A model generated the notes under the pieces. That model worked only from the letters and a program-made list of their open reading frames with translations, was not told the origin of the DNA and searched no databases. This document shows, one piece after another, positions 198-60,418 of a DNA stretch of 64,000 bases. The DNA lies in the NCBI RefSeq assembly GCF_022374935.2, contig NZ_CP092430.2:3162001-3226000 (forward strand), written 5' to 3'. The DNA is from Mycolicibacter virginiensis. GTDB taxonomy: Bacteria; Actinomycetota; Actinomycetes; Mycobacteriales; Mycobacteriaceae. The position numbers were made by a program, and so were the translations under genes. How positions within the stretch are numbered: position 1 is the stretch's first letter; each line of letters begins with the position of its first letter.

Positions 198-740
198 TTG
201 ACCACTGACAACGACGCGGACGGACCGCCGCGGCTCGCGCTGATCATCGCGCTGGTGGTCGCCGTCGCCGCGGTAGGCGCCGCGCTGACGGTCGCCGCGC
301 AACACCACCCGGACAAGCGGCCGGCCGGACCGGTCCCGGTCGCGACGGTGCCTGCTCCACACGCCGACAGCGAAGACTGCCGTGCCCTGCTCGAGGCGCT
401 ACCGGCTCAGCTGGGCGACTACCGGCGTGCCGAGCTCGCCGCACCCGCACCGCAAGGCGCGGCGGCCTGGACCGCCGATGACAGCGAGGCCGTGGTGCTG
501 CGCTGTGGACTGGACCGGCCGGCCGACTTCGTGGTGGGCTCCCCCATCCAGGTGGTCGATCACGTGCAGTGGTTCGAAGTCCGCGAAGGCGACCGCGCCA
601 CCTGGTATGTGGTGGACCGGACCGTCTATCTGGCGCTGACGCTGCCGCCGGGATCGGGCCCCACGCCGATCCAGGAGGTGTCGGATCTGATCGCCGACAC
701 CGTTGCTGCCGTCCCGATCCGGCCGGGCCCACCGCGTTGA
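198..740 (+). CDS. DUF3515-family membrane-anchored protein
   Basis: 180 residues from a TTG start. A short charged N-terminus is followed by one hydrophobic segment at about residues 13-34 (LALIIALVVAVAAVGAALTV), then a Pro-rich stretch and an extracytoplasmic domain with two cysteines (about residues 54 and 97). No lipobox cysteine follows the hydrophobic segment, so it is more likely an anchored or secreted protein than a lipoprotein. Size, topology and position between thiL and ddl match the actinobacterial DUF3515 family (Rv2980 in M. tuberculosis), whose function is unknown. It is convergent with ddl. Confidence 0.75.
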   Translation: MTTDNDADGPPRLALIIALVVAVAAVGAALTVAAQHHPDKRPAGPVPVATVPAPHADSEDCRALLEALPAQLGDYRRAELAAPAPQGAAAWTADDSEAVVLRCGLDRPADFVVGSPIQVVDHVQWFEVREGDRATWYVVDRTVYLALTLPPGSGPTPIQEVSDLIADTVAAVPIRPGPPR

Positions 741-764
741 TCCTCACGCCGAGCGTGTAACCAC

Positions 765-790
765 CGCGAAATTCGGGCAGATTTTTCGCG
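765..790. terminator. Possible weak bidirectional terminator between the DUF3515 gene and ddl
   Basis: CGCGAAA at 765-771 pairs with TTTCGCG at 784-790, with a T-rich stretch inside the loop side. It lies between two convergent genes. The 7-bp stem is short for a mycobacterial terminator, so confidence is low. Confidence 0.3.
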
Positions 791-824
791 CTGAGTGCAC
801 ATTCGGCGCGCTACCCGAGGCAGC

Positions 825-1937
<1,113 letters not shown>

Positions 1938-1972
1938 ACGCCAGAGGGTACCGGCCGACCCGCAGCGGGCGC

Positions 1973-3001
1973 CTACTCCGGTTTGGTGCGACGTCCCAGC
2001 AGCAACGCCACCGCCTCGTTGACCGACGACCCCTTGTGGCAGACCCGGTGCACGGCGTCGGTCAGCGGCATCTCCACGTCGTAGCTCAACGCCAGCGCCA
2101 GCACCGACTGACACGACGTCACGCCTTCGACGACATGGCCGTCGGAGGTGCTCAACAACCCCGCCGAGCCGGGCACCGGCGGCATCGCCTCGCCCCGGCC
2201 GAGCCGTTCGCCGAACGAGCGGTTGCGCGAGTGCGGGGATGTGCAGGTGGCGACCAGATCGCCCACTCCGGCCAGGCCGGCCAGGGTGGCGCCCTTGGCA
2301 CCCAGCGCTACTCCCAGTCGAATGATCTCGGCCAGGCCCCGGGTGATGATCGCGGCCGCCGTGTTCTCGCCCAGCCCCACTCCGGCCGCCATCCCGCAGG
2401 CCAGGGCGATGACGTTCTTGCAGGCGCCGCCGATCTCGGTGCCGACGACGTCGGAGTTGGTGTACGGCCGGAAGTAGCCCGTGTTGAGCATGCGCTGCAG
2501 TGCCACCGCACGGCCGGAGTCGGTGCAGGCGACCACGGTGGCTGCCGGCTGTTCGGCGGCGATCTCCGCGGCCAAGTTGGGACCGGACACCACCGCGACC
2601 TGACCGGGATCGAACCCGGTCACCGCCGCGACCACCTGACTCATCCGCATCAGCGTGCCCAGCTCGATGCCCTTGGCGACGCTGACCAGGGTGGCGCTGT
2701 CGGTCAGGTGCGGCGTCCATGCTTGGAGATTGGCCCGCATCGTCTGTGCCGGCACGGCCAGCACCACGGTGGTCAAGCCGTCCAGCGCCTCGGCCGGATC
2801 ACTGGTGGCGCGCACCGCGTCGGGGACCTCGAAGCCTGGCAGATAGTCGGGGTTACGCCGGGTCTCGTTGATCTGCGCGGCGATGTCGGGCCGGCGCGCC
2901 CAGAGTCTGACGTCACTGCCGGCATCGGCGAGCACCTTGGCCAGAGCCGTGCCCCACGCGCCCGCGCCCATCACCGCGACCGTTCCCTCGGTGCCGCCCA
3001 T
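1973..3001 (-). CDS. gpsA: Glycerol-3-phosphate dehydrogenase [NAD(P)+]
   Basis: Reduces dihydroxyacetone phosphate to sn-glycerol-3-phosphate, the backbone for phospholipids. The 342-residue protein opens with the Rossmann motif [21 protein letters not shown] (GAGAWG). It has the SVAKGIE segment with the catalytic lysine region, [10 protein letters not shown], and the C-terminal domain lysine in [17 protein letters not shown]. The family and length match bacterial GpsA (gpdA2 in mycobacteria). The gene is followed by ddl on the same strand; its upstream side faces the 55-bp tandem repeats and the divergent fbiD. Confidence 0.96.
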
Positions 3002-3035
3002 CGCACACCACCTCCCTCTATAGGCGCCTCACCTT

Positions 3036-3200
3036 AGCGGTGATCGCGAGCGCGGCGGAGCCGGGCGAAGCGGGTCACCGCCAACAACCCAGCGGTGATC
3101 GCGAGCGCGGCGGAGCCGGGCGAAGCGGGTCACCGCCAACAACCCAGCGGTGATCGCGAGCGCGGCGGAGCCGGGCGAAGCGGGTCACCGCCAACAACCC
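3036..3200. repeat. Three tandem 55-bp repeats (mycobacterial interspersed hairpin-type repeat)
   Basis: Units start at 3036, 3091 and 3146, with almost no divergence among copies. Each carries the core GCGGCGGAGCCGGGCG framed by arms GCGGTGA and TCACCGC, which are perfect inverted repeats, so each unit can fold into a hairpin with the core as apical part. They fill the divergent spacer between gpsA and fbiD and may affect its promoters. The same core recurs at 15371 and 37800 with different arms. Copy number is probably variable. Confidence 0.9.
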
Positions 3201-3239
3201 AGCCCGCGGAACACCCAGCCCGACGCTGGCAGGATGTGA

Positions 3240-6120
<2,881 letters not shown>

Positions 6121-50068: not shown

Positions 50069-51716
50069 GGCGGGTTCACATGGTCGTCGCAACACTGCTG
50101 GTTAGTTGGCCAGTAGTAGATCACGCAGGCGCTCGGCTGGGGTATCCCAGCCGAGCGTTTTGCGTGGGCGGCTGTTGAGCTCTTGGGCGACGTGTTCGAG
50201 GTCTTCGGGTCCGTAGATGCTCAGGTCGGTTCCTTTGGGGAAGTACTGCCGCAGCAGTCCGTTGGTGTTCTCGTTGCTGCCACGCTGCCAGGGGCTGGCC
50301 GGATCGCAGAAATAGACGGCCATGTCGGTGGCCATGCTGAACTGCTTGTGCCCGGCCATCTCGGCGCCTTGGTCCCAGGTCAGTGACCCCCGCAGATGTG
50401 CCGGCAGGGTGCTCATAGTTGCGATCAGTGCATCGCGCACGGTCTCGGCGTCATGCCCGCCCGGTAGGTGCAGCAGCATCGTGTAGCGCGTCGTTCGCTC
50501 GACGAGGGTGCCGATCGCGGTCTGGTTCTTCTCCCCGGTGATCAGATCGCCTTCCCAATGCCCGGGGATCGCACGGTCTTCGACTTCGGCGGGGCGGTCG
50601 CTGATCATCACCATCGGGTCGGTGAACCGCTGATAGCGTTCGCCGTCTTTGCGGTGCGGTTTACGTCTCGTTCGTCCGGTCCGAAGTGCTTGCTGCACTT
50701 CTCGTTTCAAGCCACCTCGGGCCTGGAAGTAGAGGGCCTGGTAGATCGTTTCGTGGCTCACCCACATGCTCTCGTCGTCGGGATGATCCCGGCGCAGGCG
50801 GCGCGAGATCTGCTCCGGTGAGAGCTTGCGCGATAAGCCTTCCTCGACCGCCTCCCGCAGGACCGTGTTCACCACCAGTTTGGACCCCTTGGGCCGCGCC
50901 CGGGCCGCCACTGCCACACGATCGGCCTGATACGGCAGGTATCGGCCATCAATGCTGTGTCTGCGGACCTCCCGCGAGACGGTGGAGACGTTCTTGCCGA
51001 TCCGGTCGGCGATCGCCCGCAGCGAATCCCTCCCGAGCAGGCCCTCGGCGATCGCTACCCGATCCTCGATCGACAGATACCGGCCGTCAATCGCCGGCGG
51101 CCCGGTGTCATCGCAGGTCACACTGGTCACAGGCTGTTTGTAGACGGTGCCGTGGTTGTAGTCCACGACCCGGCCATCGGGATAGATCCGCGTGTTGTTG
51201 ACGTGGCGAATCCCCTGGCGCCAGTCCCGCGCGGTCCGTACGTTCACACCGACCTCACGAGCTGCCTGCGCGGTTGACCAGCCGGCCGCGAGCAGCTCCA
51301 TGCAACGACGTTTGGCCTCGTCCTTGCCCTTCGGCGGGATCTTCTCGGTGGTGACCAGACCCTCGACGACCAATATTCGACGCGCCACCGAATGCGATAC
51401 CCGACAGGCTTTTGCCGCCTGATTGATCGAGCCCGTCTTGTCGAATACGGCCACGATGATGTCCCGATCGGCAACCCCACGCTGATCACCACGCTTGCCA
51501 GGACCCCGGGCCTGCCCGGCCGGCCGGCCGATGGCCCGCAGAATCGCAAAGCACCGGTCACGGGACAGGCCGACCGCGACCGCAGCCTCCTTAACCGGAA
51601 CCCCAGCATCGACCAACTTCGCTAGCTGGTCACCGAACCGCGCACAGTCCTCCAAAAACGACATGGTCGCCGCAACCTCTCAATCGAGAGTGTTGCGACG
51701 ACCATGTGAACCCGCC
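50069..51716 (-). mobile_element. IS30-family insertion sequence, 1,648 bp
   Basis: Perfect 28-bp terminal inverted repeats begin GGCGGGTTCACATGG and end GCAACACT; they lie at 50069-50096 and 51689-51716. The target duplication is ACC (50066-50068 and 51717-51719). The one ORF is an intact transposase on the minus strand. The target is a terminator loop, a palindromic site of the kind IS30-type elements are known to prefer. Confidence 0.95.
50102..51664 (-). CDS. IS30-family transposase
   Basis: 520 residues, longer than classic IS30 (about 380) because of an N-terminal extension (about 1-170) with additional helix-turn-helix segments (VPVKEAAVAVGLSRDRCFAIL; SINQAAKACRVSHSVARRIL). The IS30 HTH is YLSIEDRVAIAEGLLGRDSLRAIADRIGKNVSTVSREVRRH. 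The DDE domain is IPGHWEGDLI, LTWDQGAEMAGH and PWQRGSNENTNGLLRQYFPKGTDL. No stops or frameshifts, so it is likely active. Confidence 0.95.
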   Translation of the reverse strand: MSFLEDCARFGDQLAKLVDAGVPVKEAAVAVGLSRDRCFAILRAIGRPAGQARGPGKRGDQRGVADRDIIVAVFDKTGSINQAAKACRVSHSVARRILVVEGLVTTEKIPPKGKDEAKRRCMELLAAGWSTAQAAREVGVNVRTARDWRQGIRHVNNTRIYPDGRVVDYNHGTVYKQPVTSVTCDDTGPPAIDGRYLSIEDRVAIAEGLLGRDSLRAIADRIGKNVSTVSREVRRHSIDGRYLPYQADRVAVAARARPKGSKLVVNTVLREAVEEGLSRKLSPEQISRRLRRDHPDDESMWVSHETIYQALYFQARGGLKREVQQALRTGRTRRKPHRKDGERYQRFTDPMVMISDRPAEVEDRAIPGHWEGDLITGEKNQTAIGTLVERTTRYTMLLHLPGGHDAETVRDALIATMSTLPAHLRGSLTWDQGAEMAGHKQFSMATDMAVYFCDPASPWQRGSNENTNGLLRQYFPKGTDLSIYGPEDLEHVAQELNSRPRKTLGWDTPAERLRDLLLAN

Positions 51717-53990: not shown

Positions 53991-54454
53991 ATGCAACACC
54001 GTGCCCCCGCCCCGTGGGTCGCCGCAAGCGTCGCGCTCTTCGGAGCCGGTTCTGTGGCCGCCACGACGGCCGTCGCGCCCCTGCCCGCCCAGCCGGCCCT
54101 GCACTCCCATGCGGTGCAGCTGACGGCCAGCTGGGACGACGTCTTGCAGACCGCCGAGGCCAACGCCACCGACATCTGGAACCACTTCTCCGCGGCGCCG
54201 TTCGCGGGCCTGCAACAGCAACTGGCCAACCAGATCGGCTACATCCAGGGCCTGGCCGACGGCTCGCTGAGCTTCGCCGACGTCACCAAGGACATTCAAG
54301 ATCACTTGACTGCCCTGTTCGGCGCACCGGCGACCGAAGACACCGCAGCGGTCCCCGGTGCCCTGTTCGGGCCGTTCCTTCCCGAGGGCGGTGCCACCGA
54401 CACGCTGTACCAATCGCTGGATGACGTGGTGAAGGCCACCGACGGGCTGCTCGC
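53991..54454 (+). pseudogene. Secreted protein paralogue 2, 5' part (disrupted by transposon)
   Basis: Start ATG 53991 gives MQHRAPAPWVAASVALFGAG..., matching the signal peptide and leader of the 49002 gene. The mature part begins VQLTASWDDVLQTAEANATDIWNHFSAAPFAGLQQQLANQ. About 155 codons remain before the element starts after CTCGC (54450-54454). Read-through into the element adds about 104 unrelated residues to a stop at 54765-54767, so a truncated secreted product is possible. Confidence 0.9.
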
Positions 54455-54936
54455 TGTCCGTTGGCATCTGACGTGGGGCATTGTCACGGCATCTGAGGTA
54501 TCGGCGTGTCTTTGCCAATCTATCTGGGGTACTGCCCGTAGCCTCGACTCAGTGTGCGCTGCAACGGTGGCGGCATGGCCGCAGGTCACTCGACCTGGCG
54601 GACCCGGGCATACCCCCAACCGCCCAGCACACCGTTCCGACACGTCGGACAGCCGATCTCGCCGGCCAAAAGCCGGGACTCGACGCAGGCCAAATCAACC
54701 TCTACCGTCACCATCAGTGCCTGCGAGCACTACAGCGCGGCACCCAGCGAGCCGACAAAGACTTTAGCGGGGTGTCGCGCACCCATCAGTTACCTCGTCA
54801 CACTGATGGTGAACACGAGCCCAAGCAACCGGCAGATCCGGCCGACCGGCCTATCGGCAACCCCAGTGGCGAATCCCCACCCCGTGGTCGTCACCCAGAG
54901 AGACGGTCAACATCCGTTCTCGCTTGACCTGAGGCA
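54455..54936. repeat. Left-end repeated motif array of the transposon
   Basis: Motif ATCTGAGGYA or close variants occur at 54466-54475 (ATCTGACGTG), 54491-54500 (ATCTGAGGTA), 54522-54531 (ATCTGGGGTA) and 54927-54936 (ACCTGAGGCA). The second is preceded by ATTGTCAC (54480-54487), as in the right end. No credible gene is seen in 54540-54890; ORFs there have no recognisable domain. Confidence 0.6.
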
Positions 54937-55643
54937 CTGTTTGCTGCCTGACCAGCGGTTGAATTATCGCCGGCCGGTGTGGTTGCGGGTTCCCTGTCCT
55001 TGTGTCGGTGGGAGGCGAGGAAGTCGTCGACGATGCGTGTGCAGTCGTGGGCAGTCATGGTGCGCAGGCCGGTCATCCGCGCGAAGGCGAATGGCCCGAT
55101 GAGTTGGCACAGTACGAGTTCGACGTCGAAGTCGCCGAGTTCAGCGCGGGCTTCGGCGCTTTGCAGTATGGCGTCGAAGGGTTGTCGGTATTGGTCAATG
55201 ACTCGTGCGCGCAGGGCCCTAGGGGCGTGCTCGGTACTGGCGTGATCGGTGGTTGCGGTGGGGCCCAGGGCGAGCCAGGCCAGCGCGGTGACGTGCAGCG
55301 GGGCGTCGTCGAATAAGGCGGCCTGGCGGGTGAGCAGTTCGATGAGCCGTTCGCGCAGCGTTCCACTGGCGGGTGCAGGCGGGGTGACTTGGGGCAGTAG
55401 CCGCTCGAAGGTCGCTGCAAGCAGCTGCGACGAGCTGTTGAAATGACGGTAGAGGGTGGTGCGAGCCACCTTGGAGGCTTTGGTGACCGCATCAATGGTG
55501 ACGGCCTCAACGCCGCCGCTGGTGAGCAGTGCGGCCGCTGCGTCCAGTAGGCGATTGCGAGACCGGATCCGGCGGGGGTCGATGTCGTCATCGTCCTTGC
55601 TGTCATCGTGGCCGAACTGCAACCGGCTGCTCACCTCGCTCAC
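54891..55643 (-). CDS. TetR-family regulator of the transposon-borne transporter
   Basis: 250 residues from GTG 55643. The helix-turn-helix is RIRSRNRLLDAAAALLTSGGVEAVTIDAVTKASKVARTTLYRHFNSSSQLLAATFERLL. The C-terminal about 30 residues are low-complexity (DNSTAGQAANSASGQ). It is divergent from the DUF6188 and mmpL genes and probably represses them, as TetR genes do for many mmpL genes. Confidence 0.88.
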   Translation of the reverse strand: MSEVSSRLQFGHDDSKDDDDIDPRRIRSRNRLLDAAAALLTSGGVEAVTIDAVTKASKVARTTLYRHFNSSSQLLAATFERLLPQVTPPAPASGTLRERLIELLTRQAALFDDAPLHVTALAWLALGPTATTDHASTEHAPRALRARVIDQYRQPFDAILQSAEARAELGDFDVELVLCQLIGPFAFARMTGLRTMTAHDCTRIVDDFLASHRHKDREPATTPAGDNSTAGQAANSASGQARTDVDRLSG

Positions 55644-55783
55644 CTCGCTGCTTCCGGGTTTTTGGCCGGCGTTGCGCGCTTGGGCCGATTATGGCACCAA
55701 CGGTAGCCCAGCGAAACGGTTCGTCGCTGGCAGTGCCATCGTGTTCCGGATTGGCTCCGTGACACCCAGTGATTGCTACCGCT

Positions 55784-55799
55784 AGTAGTGTAGCGCTAC
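55784..55799. promoter_or_regulatory. Candidate TetR operator with palindrome
   Basis: AGTAGTGTAGCG (55784-55795) overlaps the perfect palindrome GTAGCGCTAC (55790-55799) in the divergent promoter between tetR and the DUF6188 gene. The near-identical AGTAGCGTAGCG occurs at 56358-56369 in front of mmpL. Confidence 0.5.
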
Positions 55800-55843
55800 C
55801 AATAGTACCATTTGTGCATCGCTCGACGGTTGATGGAGGCGCC

Positions 55844-56278
55844 ATGTACACCCAATGGATCCAAGCGTGCACTGTGCAGCGGGTGTCGCTGCGTGGCGGG
55901 CTGATGTTGGGCTTCGATGACGGCAATGAGGTGGTCATCTACAGTCCGCTGCTGCTTACGTTGCCCGCTGTCGGTGACTTTCCGATCGAGGCAGTGTTCA
56001 TCGACCCCGCCCGGGTCGCGACTCATGAGATCCCACTGCTGGACTTCGCCGGCGCGGTGTGCACGCAGGCATGGTGCGGTGATGGCGGTGCGCTGCACCT
56101 TGGCTTTTCGAGCGGACACGGCATCGACGTTGACGCCCATCCGGAGGTCACCGCCTGGGAGTTGTACGGCCGGCACCATGGCTACATGGCGTGCCTGCCG
56201 CAAGGGCGGGTCCGGGTGGTCCGCTATGACGTCCCCGAGGCCTACGACTCCGAGGTAGATCTCGCCGCACGTCGTTAA
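55844..56278 (+). CDS. DUF6188-like small protein
   Basis: 144 residues from ATG 55844, with GGAGG seven bases upstream. It has GGLMLGFDDGNEVVIYSP and ALHLGFSSGHGIDVDAHPEVTAWELYG, the features of DUF6188 proteins in mycobacteria. No signal peptide or membrane segment. The function is unknown; it travels with tetR and mmpL, so it could sense or assist the transporter. Confidence 0.72.
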   Translation: MYTQWIQACTVQRVSLRGGLMLGFDDGNEVVIYSPLLLTLPAVGDFPIEAVFIDPARVATHEIPLLDFAGAVCTQAWCGDGGALHLGFSSGHGIDVDAHPEVTAWELYGRHHGYMACLPQGRVRVVRYDVPEAYDSEVDLAARR

Positions 56279-56357
56279 TGGTTCATTCCGCAATGGCCTA
56301 CGCCGGGCCGCGCGTGGGGCCCGGAATAGCACCCGTTTCGACCACTGTGGCACTATG

Positions 56358-56369
56358 AGTAGCGTAGCG
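56358..56369 (+). promoter_or_regulatory. Second TetR operator-like sequence upstream of mmpL
   Basis: AGTAGCGTAGCG, 11 of 12 bases identical to 55784-55795, 20 bp before the mmpL start. This suggests that the same regulator controls mmpL separately. Confidence 0.45.
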
Positions 56370-56388
56370 ATATCGAAAGTTTCGTTTG

Positions 56389-59300
56389 ATGGGGGGTGGG
56401 GTGATCGACGGCGATCGGGACTTCTCGGGTACCACAGCGACACTGCCGAAACGGACTGGCGGTTCGGCCCCTGCGGCCGCTTCCAGCGAGTACAGCGTGC
56501 GATTGGCCGCCCTGGCCGGGTTCACGGTGCGACACAAGGCGCTGGTGATGGGGGCATGGGTCGGCGTTGCGCTCGTGCTGGCGCTGCTGTTTCCTCAGCT
56601 GGAGACGGTGGTGCGGCAGCAGTCGGTAAATCTGCTCCCCGGCGATGTCCCGTCGTTTCAAACGGTGGACCGCATGAGCGCGGCGTTCAGCGAACAGGGT
56701 TCCAAAACGATGGTGTTCGTGGCGATGGAAGACCCCGCCGGGTTAACCCCCGCGGTGCGGCAGCACTACGAGCAGCTCGTGGCGCGGCTCAGCGCCAACA
56801 CCGATCACGTCCTGCTGGTTGAAGACTTGCTGGCCGACCCTGTCACCGCGGCCCACGCGGTCAGCAACGATCACCAAGCTTGGTATCTGCCGGTGGGTGT
56901 GGCTGGCACCCTGGGTGACCCCACCGCGGCCGCCTCCGTGCAGGCGGTGCGCGATATCGCCGCTGGGGTGTTCGCCGGCACGTCGACCACAGCGTATGTG
57001 ACGGGGCCGACGGCGACCTTCAGTGACATGATCGCCTCTGCCGAGCATGACCTGCTGCTGATTTCGATCGCGACTGCCGGCTTGATCGCGCTGATCCTGC
57101 TGATCGTGTACCGGTCGGTATTCACCGCGCTGCTGCCGCTGCTGGTGATCGCAGTGAGCCTGGCCGTTGGGCGCGGTGTGCTATCGGTACTGGGCGAGCT
57201 GGGCATGCCTGTCTCGCAGTTCACCGTGGCGTTTATGACCGCGATCCTGCTGGGTGCAGGCACCGATTACACCGTATTCTTGATCAGCCGCTATCACGAG
57301 CAGCGGCGCACACACGTGCCCGCCGACCAGGCCGTTATCCACGCTACCGCCAGCATCGGTCGGGTGATCCTGGCCTCGGCGGCCACCGTCGCGTTCGCGT
57401 TTTTGGCTATGGTGTTCGCCCGCCTGAGTGTGTTCGCCGCGCTCGGCCCTTCGTGTGCGGTCGCAGTGCTGATCGGATTCGCAGCCACCGTCACACTGCT
57501 GCCGCCGGTGCTGGCGCTCGCGTCCAAACACGGCATCGGCGAACCCAAATCCGATCGCACCCGCCGGTACTGGAACAGCGTCGCGGTCGCGGTGGTCCGG
57601 CGCCCCGGCCGGTTATTGATCACCAGCCTGGTCATATTACTGCCCTTGGCAGGAGTCGCAGCGACAATGAAAATCAGCTACGACGACCGCAAAGGCCAGC
57701 CCGCCAGCACCGCGAGCAACCAGGGCTACCAGCTGCTGGACCACCACTTCGGCAAAGATATCGTCATCCCTGAATTCCTGGTGGTGGAAAGCCCCACCGA
57801 CATGCGCACCGGTAAGGGGCTGGCAGACCTCGACGAAATGGCCTCCCGCATCTCCCAGATCCCCGGCGTCACCAAAGTCTCCGGGATCACCCGGCCCACC
57901 GGAGAGCGCCTCGAACAGGCCCGACTCTCGTGGCAGAACGGCCAGATCGGTGACAAGTTGGCTGGCGCCGTCGCCGACGGCAACGAACGCAAGGACGACC
58001 TCACCAAGCTCACCGACGGCGCCGACCAACTCGCCAGCGGGCTCGCACAGCTTGACACCACCCTGCGCAGGGCTTTGACACCACTGACCGGGATACTGGC
58101 TCAAGCTCAGTCCGCGGGCGCTCAGGCCCAGCAGTTCCGACCGTTGCTCCAACAGCTTTCAGCGACCGCCCCGGCCATCGACCACGCAATCCAATCCGGC
58201 CCCGGGCTGCGACCTTTGGCGGAACAAGCCCAAAGCGCCATCACAATCCTCGACCCCCTCGCCGCCGCCCTCAACACCTCCCCGTGGTGCCTCACCACGC
58301 CGCAATGCGCCCAGATCCGTGATCAGGTTCAGATTCTGGTGAGCTTGCGCGACAGCGGATTCTTCACCGAGGTCGCCGACCTCGGTGACCACTACAACCC
58401 CACCAGCAACGCCACCGTGGCTGGCGCCCTCACCGATGTCCAAAACGCGGTGACCGGCCTGGACAAGGCCTTCGGAGCCCTCGGTGATCCCACTGATCTG
58501 GCCGGCAACATAGGTCGACTCCAAGACGGCATCAGTCGACTCGCCTCGGGCGCCCAAGCACTGGCAACCGGCGTGCACACCTTGGCCGACAGCAACATCG
58601 AACTGCTGTCCGGGATGAGCCAGATCGCCACCCAACTGCAGAACTCGGCTCGCGCCAGCGCCTCCTCAGACTCTGCCAGCGGCTTCTACCTGCCCGCCAA
58701 CGTCTTCGAGAACCGCCGATTCGCCGATGTGGCGAAACAATTCCTGTCAGCCGACGGCAAAGCCGCACGCTTCGCCATCGAATCGACACCCGACCCCTAC
58801 AGTGGCGCAGCAATCCGCCTGGCGCACGAGATCGTCGACGTTGCCAACGCGGCGCGCCCCAACACATCACTGGCAGACGTCACCGTCTCGGTTGCCGGGT
58901 TCCCCGCCGTCAACTCCGACATCCAACGGCTGCTGCGGGCGGACTTCGCCCAACTGGCCATCGCCACCCTGCTCATTGTCGGCCTCATCCTCGTGGTGTT
59001 GCTGCGCGCCGTGCTGGCCCCGCTGTACCTGCTGGGCACCGTCGTGTTGAACTACCTGGCCTCACTCGGCATCGGCGTCCTGATCTTCCAATGGGGACTC
59101 AACTACGAAATCGCCTGGCCGGTGCCGCTGTTGGCATTCATCATCCTGGTAGCAGTCGGCGCCGACTACAACATGCTGCTCGTCTCACGGCTGCGCGAAG
59201 AATCCGGACCCAACATCCGCGTCGGCGTACTACGCACCGTCGCCAACACCGGCTCCGTCATCACCTCAGCCGGCCTGATCTTCGCCGCCAGCATGTTCGG

Positions 59301-59562
59301 CCTCACCACCGGCTCGATCGCCATCATGATCCAGGCCGGCCTCATCATCGGCTGTGGGCTCCTCCTCGACACCTTCCTGGTGCGCACCCTCACCGTCCCC
59401 GCCATCGCCACACTGCTGCGCGAAGCCAGCTGGTGGCCCAACGTGCGGCACCGTCATCGCGGCCGACGGACCCGACAAGTTGCTGATCGTAGATCCACTA
59501 GCGAATCGGCCAGGCATGGTCAGGATGGTCAGGGCGTACCGGGAAGCGGTGAACGAGGCTGA
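56389..59562 (+). CDS. MmpL-family RND transporter
   Basis: 1,057 residues from ATG 56389 (or GTG 56401). It has an N-terminal TM helix (KALVMGAWVGVALVLALLF), a periplasmic domain, a bundle of five TM helices with the GTDYTVFLISRYHEQ motif (the Asp-Tyr proton relay), a second periplasmic region with coiled-coil-like DGADQLASGLAQL and related repeats, and a second bundle with GADYNMLLVSRLREE. MmpL proteins export lipids, siderophores or drugs. The long basic C-terminus (about 1010-1057) runs to the non-coding right end of the element. Confidence 0.93.
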   Translation: MGGGVIDGDRDFSGTTATLPKRTGGSAPAAASSEYSVRLAALAGFTVRHKALVMGAWVGVALVLALLFPQLETVVRQQSVNLLPGDVPSFQTVDRMSAAFSEQGSKTMVFVAMEDPAGLTPAVRQHYEQLVARLSANTDHVLLVEDLLADPVTAAHAVSNDHQAWYLPVGVAGTLGDPTAAASVQAVRDIAAGVFAGTSTTAYVTGPTATFSDMIASAEHDLLLISIATAGLIALILLIVYRSVFTALLPLLVIAVSLAVGRGVLSVLGELGMPVSQFTVAFMTAILLGAGTDYTVFLISRYHEQRRTHVPADQAVIHATASIGRVILASAATVAFAFLAMVFARLSVFAALGPSCAVAVLIGFAATVTLLPPVLALASKHGIGEPKSDRTRRYWNSVAVAVVRRPGRLLITSLVILLPLAGVAATMKISYDDRKGQPASTASNQGYQLLDHHFGKDIVIPEFLVVESPTDMRTGKGLADLDEMASRISQIPGVTKVSGITRPTGERLEQARLSWQNGQIGDKLAGAVADGNERKDDLTKLTDGADQLASGLAQLDTTLRRALTPLTGILAQAQSAGAQAQQFRPLLQQLSATAPAIDHAIQSGPGLRPLAEQAQSAITILDPLAAALNTSPWCLTTPQCAQIRDQVQILVSLRDSGFFTEVADLGDHYNPTSNATVAGALTDVQNAVTGLDKAFGALGDPTDLAGNIGRLQDGISRLASGAQALATGVHTLADSNIELLSGMSQIATQLQNSARASASSDSASGFYLPANVFENRRFADVAKQFLSADGKAARFAIESTPDPYSGAAIRLAHEIVDVANAARPNTSLADVTVSVAGFPAVNSDIQRLLRADFAQLAIATLLIVGLILVVLLRAVLAPLYLLGTVVLNYLASLGIGVLIFQWGLNYEIAWPVPLLAFIILVAVGADYNMLLVSRLREESGPNIRVGVLRTVANTGSVITSAGLIFAASMFGLTTGSIAIMIQAGLIIGCGLLLDTFLVRTLTVPAIATLLREASWWPNVRHRHRGRRTRQVADRRSTSESARHGQDGQGVPGSGERG

Positions 59563-59791
59563 TGGGACCGAGCCGACGGCACGAGCGCGGGCTCGTGTCT
59601 CATGCTTCGGGTCCCAGCCGGAGCCAAGCAGTGTTCCTTCTGGCCGACAGCCCGGGCCCGCGCTCGTTCCCCGCCACGAAAGTCCACTTACCCCAGTTCA
59701 AATGGCAAACCATCCGCTGCCGATTGTCACTTGATCTGAGGCACCGCAGGTCAGCGTCCCCGACCTGCCTCAGATAGATCGACAACGGACA
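59563..59791. repeat. Right end of the transposon with repeated end motifs
   Basis: No gene. ATCTGAGGCA is on the plus strand at 59734-59743 (preceded by ATTGTCAC at 59723-59730) and on the minus strand at 59766-59775; the two form an inverted pair. The terminal CAACGGACA ends at 59791. Confidence 0.65.
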
Positions 59792-60418
59792 CTCGCCGGC
59801 ATCATCGATCACAGCACCCTTTTCGGGATGCTCACCGATTCGACCGTCCTGCCGGGCATCGTCGAATCCCTCGGCTTGGACGAGAGTGCGGTGCCGCTGG
59901 TAGCGGCAGTGCTGAACTTCGCCGGTTCCTCGCTGAGCGGTGTTTTGATCGGGCAGATCAGCACCATGCTCAGCCCGGTGTTGCAGGTCAACGAGGACCT
60001 GGCCAACATCTCCGCGGCGCTAACGGGCGGTGACCCGGACTGGGACGCGGCGTTGCAGCATCTGACCGACATGCCGGCCAACGTCGTCAATGCCTATCTC
60101 AACGGTTACGGCGAAGTCGACCTGATGCCGCTCCTGGATCAGCTGGGGATCGCCCTGCCCGCCCTGACGCTGCTCGATTTGCCCACATACATCACCGAGC
60201 TGAATCTGAACCTGGGCGGACTGCTCAGCTCTGGTGGCTCGATCTTCGATGTCATCGGCATGGGCGCCGGAACCGACGCGCTGGGCGAACCGATGGACCT
60301 TTTCAGCCTGCCGGGCGTCGCGGTCGGCCCGATCGCATCCATGGTGGAGTTCTCCCAGTCCATCGCGATGGCCCTCGGCTGGGACGGCAGCAGCGACATC
60401 CTGGGCGGCCTGTTCTAA
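59792..60418 (+). pseudogene. Secreted protein paralogue 2, 3' part
   Basis: Continues the frame of 53991 after removal of the element: LAGIIDHSTLFGMLTDSTVLPGIVESLGLDES, then LSGVLIGQISTMLSPVLQ...ISAALTGGDPDWDAALQHLTDMPANVVNAYLNG, closely similar to the 49002 protein, and the C-terminus SIAMALGWDGSSDILGGLF. An internal ATG at 59828 exists, but without a signal peptide the product would not be exported. Confidence 0.9.

Follow-up and report, generated by a model that had tools for sequence, protein, structure and literature searches.

Tn7-like Transposons and Their Derivatives

Tn7 itself inserts at one fixed attachment site, and the mini-Tn7 laboratory tools are engineered constructs in which ends and cargo are moved by Tns proteins supplied in trans. 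The element considered here occupies positions 54455–59791 of the window (the whole 64,000-nt stretch analysed, positions 3162001–3226000 of contig C1 in the 4.98-Mb single-contig genome G000 of Mycolicibacter virginiensis). It resembles mini-Tn7 in being composed of ends and cargo, but it is natural, and, unlike Tn7, it is present at three different sites that have no 5-bp target in common. We consider it very probable that it is a Tn7-like transposon without transposition genes, which shares its ends and its 5-bp target duplication with a mycobacterial TnsA-TnsB-TnsC-TniQ family and was likely moved in trans by the proteins of this family. Cargo-bearing Tn7-like transposons are familiar; the new part is the natural, non-autonomous, tns-less derivative in mycobacteria. 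Among the matches listed in the open-licence PMC literature, with subscription journals outside this scope, no title deals with a natural mycobacterial Tn7-like transposon that has no tns genes.

A survey of 6,549 Tn7-like transposons, for which tnsB was required, includes an Actinobacteria-dominated TnsB clade (Benler 2021, PMC8649781); the family of movers described below likely falls in this clade. The string “mycobact” is absent from the main text of the survey. As far as that text describes them, the surveyed transposons are like the window element in their multi-repeat ends and like its relatives in the presence of tnsA, tnsB, tnsC, and tniQ, in metal-resistance or other cargo, and in plasmid location, whereas the window element has no tns genes. 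Since the survey required tnsB, tns-less derivatives are outside its scope as defined there (PMC8649781). The nearest described relative found is Tn7706 from Rhodococcus erythropolis NI86/21, a 19.4-kb autonomous transposon with tnsA, tnsB, tniQ, and tniB plus passenger genes, which resides on plasmids and in islands, one copy bearing an IS21-family insertion (PMC12915292). According to that description, it differs from the window element in its autonomy and host genus, and the likeness between them lies in the features described.

The Insertion and Its Empty Site

The element was inserted precisely: it spans 5,337 bp and is flanked by a duplication of 5 bp, CTCGC. As read in the sequence, its termini are the 9-mers TGTCCGTTG (54455–54463) and CAACGGACA (59783–59791). 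The end 9-mer alone is weak evidence, having 2 matches in the window while at least 2 occur in 16 of 100 shuffles, and the insertion is accepted because of the comparison with relatives. A search with the 5′ part of this interrupted gene gave some homologue in 65 of 196 genomes of the genus. The closest, in G153 (L116; G and L labels denote the genomes and fetched loci used in the comparison), is 91% identical and forms one open frame with no stops. When aligned separately, the left flank of the window element is 94% identical to the G153 locus over 555 bp and the right flank 95% over 629 bp, and both converge on exactly CTCGC, which is present there once. G153 thus possesses the empty site: as the two flanks meet on the same CTCGC, the gene was once whole, and the insertion duplicated this sequence.

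The two gene halves are 91% and 94% identical to the G153 gene, and 52% (86 residues) and 37% (190 residues) identical to the neighbouring paralogue. A preliminary description of the locus, made from the window sequence alone, had proposed exact ends flanked by CTCGC on both sides, a gene restored by precise excision, and a match of both halves to the paralogue. All three proposals hold, and the uninterrupted G153 homologue supplies comparative proof of the first two. Close by, window 50102–51664 (minus strand) encodes a transposase-like protein of 520 residues in which HTH_38 and rve domains are recognized.

Copies at Other Sites

The left-end pattern was found in 7 of 198 genomes of the genus when up to 3 mismatches were permitted and in 15 of 396 with up to 2. 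G101 and G204 contain the element 100% identical over 5,337 bp, with GTAGA on both sides (L090 and L092, one site in two genomes), and G374 (L157) has a copy that is 99.6% identical, with 19 mismatches, 2 gaps, and TGTGG on both sides. In all, the tns-less element is known from four genomes and three sites, one of which lies within a coding gene, and the tns genes are missing from all four copies. The common deletion at several sites indicates that the tns-less form moved after losing these genes. For the left flank of the window copy, G101 gives no match and G204 only a short paralogue match of 78%, located on a different contig; the left flank at GTAGA has no match in the window genome, and neither flank matches those at TGTGG. 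Between the window genome and G101 or G204, gatB is only 89% identical, whereas the 5.3-kb element is 100% identical, which points to a recent spread.

End Architecture and the Family of Movers

Arrays of TnsB sites are found at the ends of Tn7-like elements, and their spacing distinguishes the two ends, according to a review (PMC11406308). Nine elements were scanned here with a 20-base repeat taken from the other end of this type in the window genome, that at C1:946742. The left end has direct repeats at 7/27/58 in eight of the nine, with L033 showing the first two only at the threshold used. The right end has the spacing 7/49 (inverted)/84–85 in seven, with 7/49/90 in L033 and 7/40/74 in L097. 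The ends of the window element are likewise asymmetric, with direct repeats at 7, 27, and 58 on the left and repeats at 7, 49 (inverted), and 84 on the right; they are homologous to the ends of tnsABC-tniQ elements and bear the same repeat array.

The right-end consensus (up to 3 mismatches) has matches in 12 of 198 genomes, and a 70-base end matches four plasmid records, one from M. avium, two from M. intracellulare, and one from Rhodococcus. Both ends were located for 19 elements, a count that excludes the other matches, those to a single end whose partner either lay beyond the sequence retrieved or was not detected. Equal 5-mers border 17 of the 19. Eleven of these have tns genes (L051, L052, L093, L094, L095, L106, L107, L108, L161, L166, and the G124 element, whose left end lies in L096 and right end in L069, both with TTCAT), and six have none (the window element, L090, L092, L157, L033, and L097).

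L051 and L052 represent two 100% identical copies of an 11,965-bp element, each on a different plasmid of M. intracellulare subsp. chimaera DSM 44623 (NZ_CP015279, NZ_CP015280), with the duplications ACTTC and CCGGC. It encodes a TnsA-like endonuclease, TnsB, a TniB/AAA_22 ATPase, TniQ, and metal P-type ATPases; in L052, the domains are Mu-transpos_C for TnsB, TniB/AAA_22 for TnsC, and PF06527 for TniQ. This element has the same end type as the window element and 5-bp duplications, but differs from it in having tnsABC-tniQ and metal P-type ATPases and no mmpL. In L094, TnsA scores 281 bits against the NCBIfam model TnsA_like_Actin (cut-off 110), and TnsB matches the Tn6677 TnsB in PDB at 3.3e-9. 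The Tn5053/Tn402 type is characterized by the absence of tnsA and the presence of a resolvase; the comparison with this type covers tnsA alone, and a TnsA is present in the relative L094. The tns genes are full length in L093 and L096; the tniQ matches are shorter in L094, L095, L161, and L166 and cover 162 of 303 residues in L106–L108. L106, where tnsB and tnsC are in several pieces, and L107, where tnsC is in two, may be decayed.

The view of the preliminary description that this is a cargo-only transposon is thus borne out by copies with conserved ends at three sites, each with its own 5-bp duplication, by the empty CTCGC site in G153, and by tns-bearing relatives with the same ends. The full-length relative with tnsB/tniA-like genes that it had envisaged also exists in the form of the tnsABC-tniQ elements, which have the same end type and, in some cases, the same cargo.

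Two further members of the family have no tns genes. L033 (G015:C257, 1274–4669) measures 3,396 bp, shares the end type, has a GGTGA duplication, and carries a PPE gene (PF00823 3e-60, PPE-PPW) and a DUF7676 gene; no tns trace was detected in it by tblastn at E 0.01. L097 (G193:C79, 5494–5719) is a 226-bp miniature with AATGG on both sides.

Probable Origin by Deletion

Autonomous elements with the MmpL cargo are 10,010 (L094), 10,011 (L095), 10,011 (L166), and 9,808 bp (L161) in length; tnsA, tnsB, tnsC, and tniQ occupy their left half, followed on the right by tetR, the DUF6188 gene, and mmpL. Positions 459–5210 of the window element (459–5177 for L161) are 90.8–90.9% identical to this right half in L094, L095, L161, and L166, and positions 5208–5337 or 5219–5337 are 86–91% identical to the autonomous right end. 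On the other side, positions 1–134 align with the left end and tnsA start of L093 and L096 (78% over 134 bp) and L161 (82% over 136 bp), the tnsA start of L096 being equivalent to element position 98; only 1–86 aligns with the left end of L094 and L166. Between the tnsA start and the cargo half, positions ~128–458 represent a relic of a different insertion sequence (IS), 151–458 corresponding to its positions 309–2 with 80% identity to two G012 copies.

It follows from this pattern that tnsA from about codon 13 through the end of tniQ is gone and that the IS relic lies at the scar. Judging by sequence comparison, the element looks like a 10-kb autonomous Tn7-like transposon from which ~5 kb of tns genes has been deleted, and the insertion sequence may have taken part in the deletion. 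None of the autonomous MmpL relatives found is the direct parent (~9% divergence).

Such an origin, the assignment to a Tn7-like family, and the surviving relics of transposition genes go beyond the preliminary description, which had seen nothing transposase-like inside the element. That statement is correct for intact genes, as full tnsA, tnsB, tnsC, and tniQ are absent from 54455–59791, but it does not extend to relics, namely those of the insertion sequence and tnsA and a very weak tniQ-like stretch. The protein match of the tnsA relic is weak when taken alone (E 3.3). The tniQ-like stretch is clearer at the equivalent place in the autonomous L094, L095, L161, and L166.

The G012 copies of the insertion sequence are two identical 3,349-bp units (L035 5917–9265 and L036 6050–9398) with a candidate 2–3 bp target duplication; their proteins are a DUF6431-like one (below cut-off), an rve/Mu-transpos_C transposase, and an AAA_22 ATPase.

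Probable Movement in Trans and the Present Location of the Mover

We infer that the window element was moved in trans. TnsB of the family would bind the 20-bp repeats of its left and right ends, TnsA and TnsB would excise it, and TnsC and TniQ would direct it to a target. The mover could have reached the window lineage on another replicon or element and then been lost or decayed.

The distribution of TnsB was assessed by searching eight genomes with the L094 protein. G204 has copies at 100% and 93% identity, together with a 35% homologue and a 34-residue fragment; copies at 93–99% are present in G154 and G124, and a 42% homologue in G193, while no match to this query was found in G015 or G153. 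In G374, tnsABC-tniQ is 99.7–100% identical to the M. chimaera proteins. Hence G204 and G374 contain the tns-less element and an intact tnsABC-tniQ of the family in one genome, and they could still be able to move their copies. As the window genome has no intact cognate tnsB, its copy is probably stranded.

The only tnsB fragment of the window genome lies in a decayed Tn7-like metal-resistance element at C1:946742 to ~959674 (L032, L054), in which tnsC is full length, tniQ is split over two frames, and tnsB is represented by ~31–34 residues; its end is apparently within the frame of a P-type ATPase. A 17.7-kb stretch across its outer end is 99.99% identical to G204, against only 89% for gatB of the two genomes. 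tnsA was not found in the stretch examined (no genome-wide tnsA search was made), and no partner for the end at C1:946742 was detected in 936800–995999 at the threshold used. This end was considered as a part of an intact mover and rejected because of the decay of the element.

Alternative Explanations

The deletion and the IS relic inside the element, as well as the decayed Tn7-like remains elsewhere in the window genome, would also fit the arrival of a complete transposon that lost its tns genes only after insertion at 54455. This is hardly credible, however, because the same deleted form recurs in G101 and G204 (identical) and in G374 (99.6%), at two further sites that each have a separate duplication. 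A different DDE transposase, either of the IS481/IS21 type or that of the relic insertion sequence, might be proposed as the mover instead of TnsABC-TniQ, given that the TnsB query also matches the IS481 and IS21 models, albeit below cut-off, and that the relic insertion sequence encodes an rve/Mu-transpos_C transposase and an AAA_22 ATPase of its own. We regard this as quite unlikely, since in eleven elements bordered by matching 5-bp repeats the tns genes are enclosed by ends of the TGTCCGTTG type with the same repeat layout (scanned in six), while the insertion sequence has different ends (GTGTTGACC..) and is present as an internal relic, not at the element borders. The match of 54582–54918 to a multi-copy transposase locus was likewise rejected as a sign of the element's own mover, because the ends of the G012 copies differ.

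It is similarly improbable that the element spread mainly in larger plasmid or island transfers followed by homologous recombination, with little transposition. G101 and G204 do share the GTAGA site, with 97% identity over 13.9 kb including the element and 100% over the 1-kb left flank, and 17.7 kb is common to the window genome and G204 at 99.99%. Nevertheless, the sites are three in number and differ, an exact 5-bp duplication being specific to each, and their left flanks (the sides compared) do not match apart from the short 78% paralogue match. A vehicle is still required for passage from cell to cell, so that this route complements transposition rather than replaces it. Transposition in trans by the TnsABC-TniQ family is therefore preferred, though several observations weigh against it. 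Of tnsB, the window genome retains only a fragment of 34 residues, and the sole TnsB of G101 is 35% identical, so there is now no cognate mover in two of the four carriers. Identity of the left and right ends to their counterparts in the autonomous MmpL elements is 82–91%, which means that the exact parent or partner is not among the elements found. Border 5-mers are unequal in 2 of the 19 elements (Rhodococcus L049 and the metal-type L158/L168 of G374). Finally, TnsA of L094 has no PDB match, and that of L052 has no Pfam match.

Modularity and Significance

Internal right-type ends are located between cargo blocks of the larger elements (L093 at 5882 and 9683, L094 at 5152, and L096, L110, L158, and L167), and the window element retains a relic of one, whose fuller counterpart is that at L094:5152. 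Those at L094:5152 and similar places were considered as partners of the outer right end and rejected, as they have no matching 5-bp repeat and are hence internal. Such ends suggest that the cargo is modular. The review cited above (PMC11406308) states that a synthetic Tn7 is functional with two right ends, so internal cargo blocks might move alone; no free cargo block with matching 5-mers was found among the loci compared.

The window element is the counterpart of mini-Tn7 in nature, and its history can be traced through close autonomous relatives, the scar of a deletion, insertion at several sites, and the presence of a candidate mover in the same genome; this makes trans-mobilization by a wild Tn7-like system directly testable. 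It also means that a class of mobile cargo escapes surveys that start from tnsB and that mycobacterial cell-envelope genes (MmpL, PPE) can be transposon passengers. More tentatively, and with the balance still somewhat against it, one may imagine a shared mycobacterial pool of tns-less Tn7-like passengers through which genes for the cell envelope and for interaction with the host (MmpL exporter, PPE protein) reach new species and sites, a few autonomous TnsABC-TniQ elements providing the mover in trans and internal right-type ends making the cargo blocks exchangeable cassettes.

Features of the Locus and Cargo

The coordinates of the element, its flanks, relics, and cargo are collected in Table 1.

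Table 1. Features of the element and the interrupted gene (window positions).
Feature	Position	Strand	Basis or remark
Interrupted gene, 5′ part	53991..54454	+	homology to G153 gene and paralogue; no Pfam family found
Target duplication CTCGC, left copy	54450..54454	.	single copy in uninterrupted G153 gene
Left end	54455..54531	+	TGTCCGTTG and three direct 20-bp repeats at 54461, 54481, 54512 (predicted TnsB sites)
tnsA relic, first ~12–13 codons	54552..54590	+	DNA alignment to autonomous left end and tnsA start
Relic of one end of a different insertion sequence, ~330 bp	54582..54912	-	at tns deletion junction
tetR regulator (TetR_N, TetR_C_11)	54891..55643	-	domain search
Internal right-type end relic	54911..54936	+	site 16/20
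DUF6188 gene, start codon provisional	55769..56278	+	PF19686 E 1.7e-41
mmpL, RND exporter, MmpL4/MmpL5 class	56386..59562	+	MMPL 9e-153; best PDB relative MmpL4 (9syt) 6.7e-145
Possible tniQ-like relic, in-frame stop	59468..59563	-	very weak, E 0.009
Right end	59689..59791	-	20-bp repeats at 59766 (-), 59724 (+), 59689 (-), then CAACGGACA
Target duplication CTCGC, right copy	59792..59796	.	single copy in uninterrupted G153 gene
Interrupted gene, 3′ part	59797..60418	+	homology to G153 gene and paralogue

The cargo genes tetR, DUF6188, and mmpL had already been named in the preliminary description, and domain searches agree for all three (TetR, DUF6188, MMPL). The MmpL protein is predicted to be an exporter under the control of the adjacent TetR. 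A tetR/DUF6188/MMPL group, often accompanied by a thioesterase gene and a second tetR, is also found on plasmids of M. dioxanotrophicus, M. chubuense, M. abscessus, and others, with 76–83% DNA identity to the window cargo. This cargo may also travel with a different recombinase system. In L053 (NZ_CP020810, 1912–11735), a tetR/thioesterase/tetR/DUF6188/MMPL group adjoins two tyrosine recombinase genes and a DUF6262 gene.
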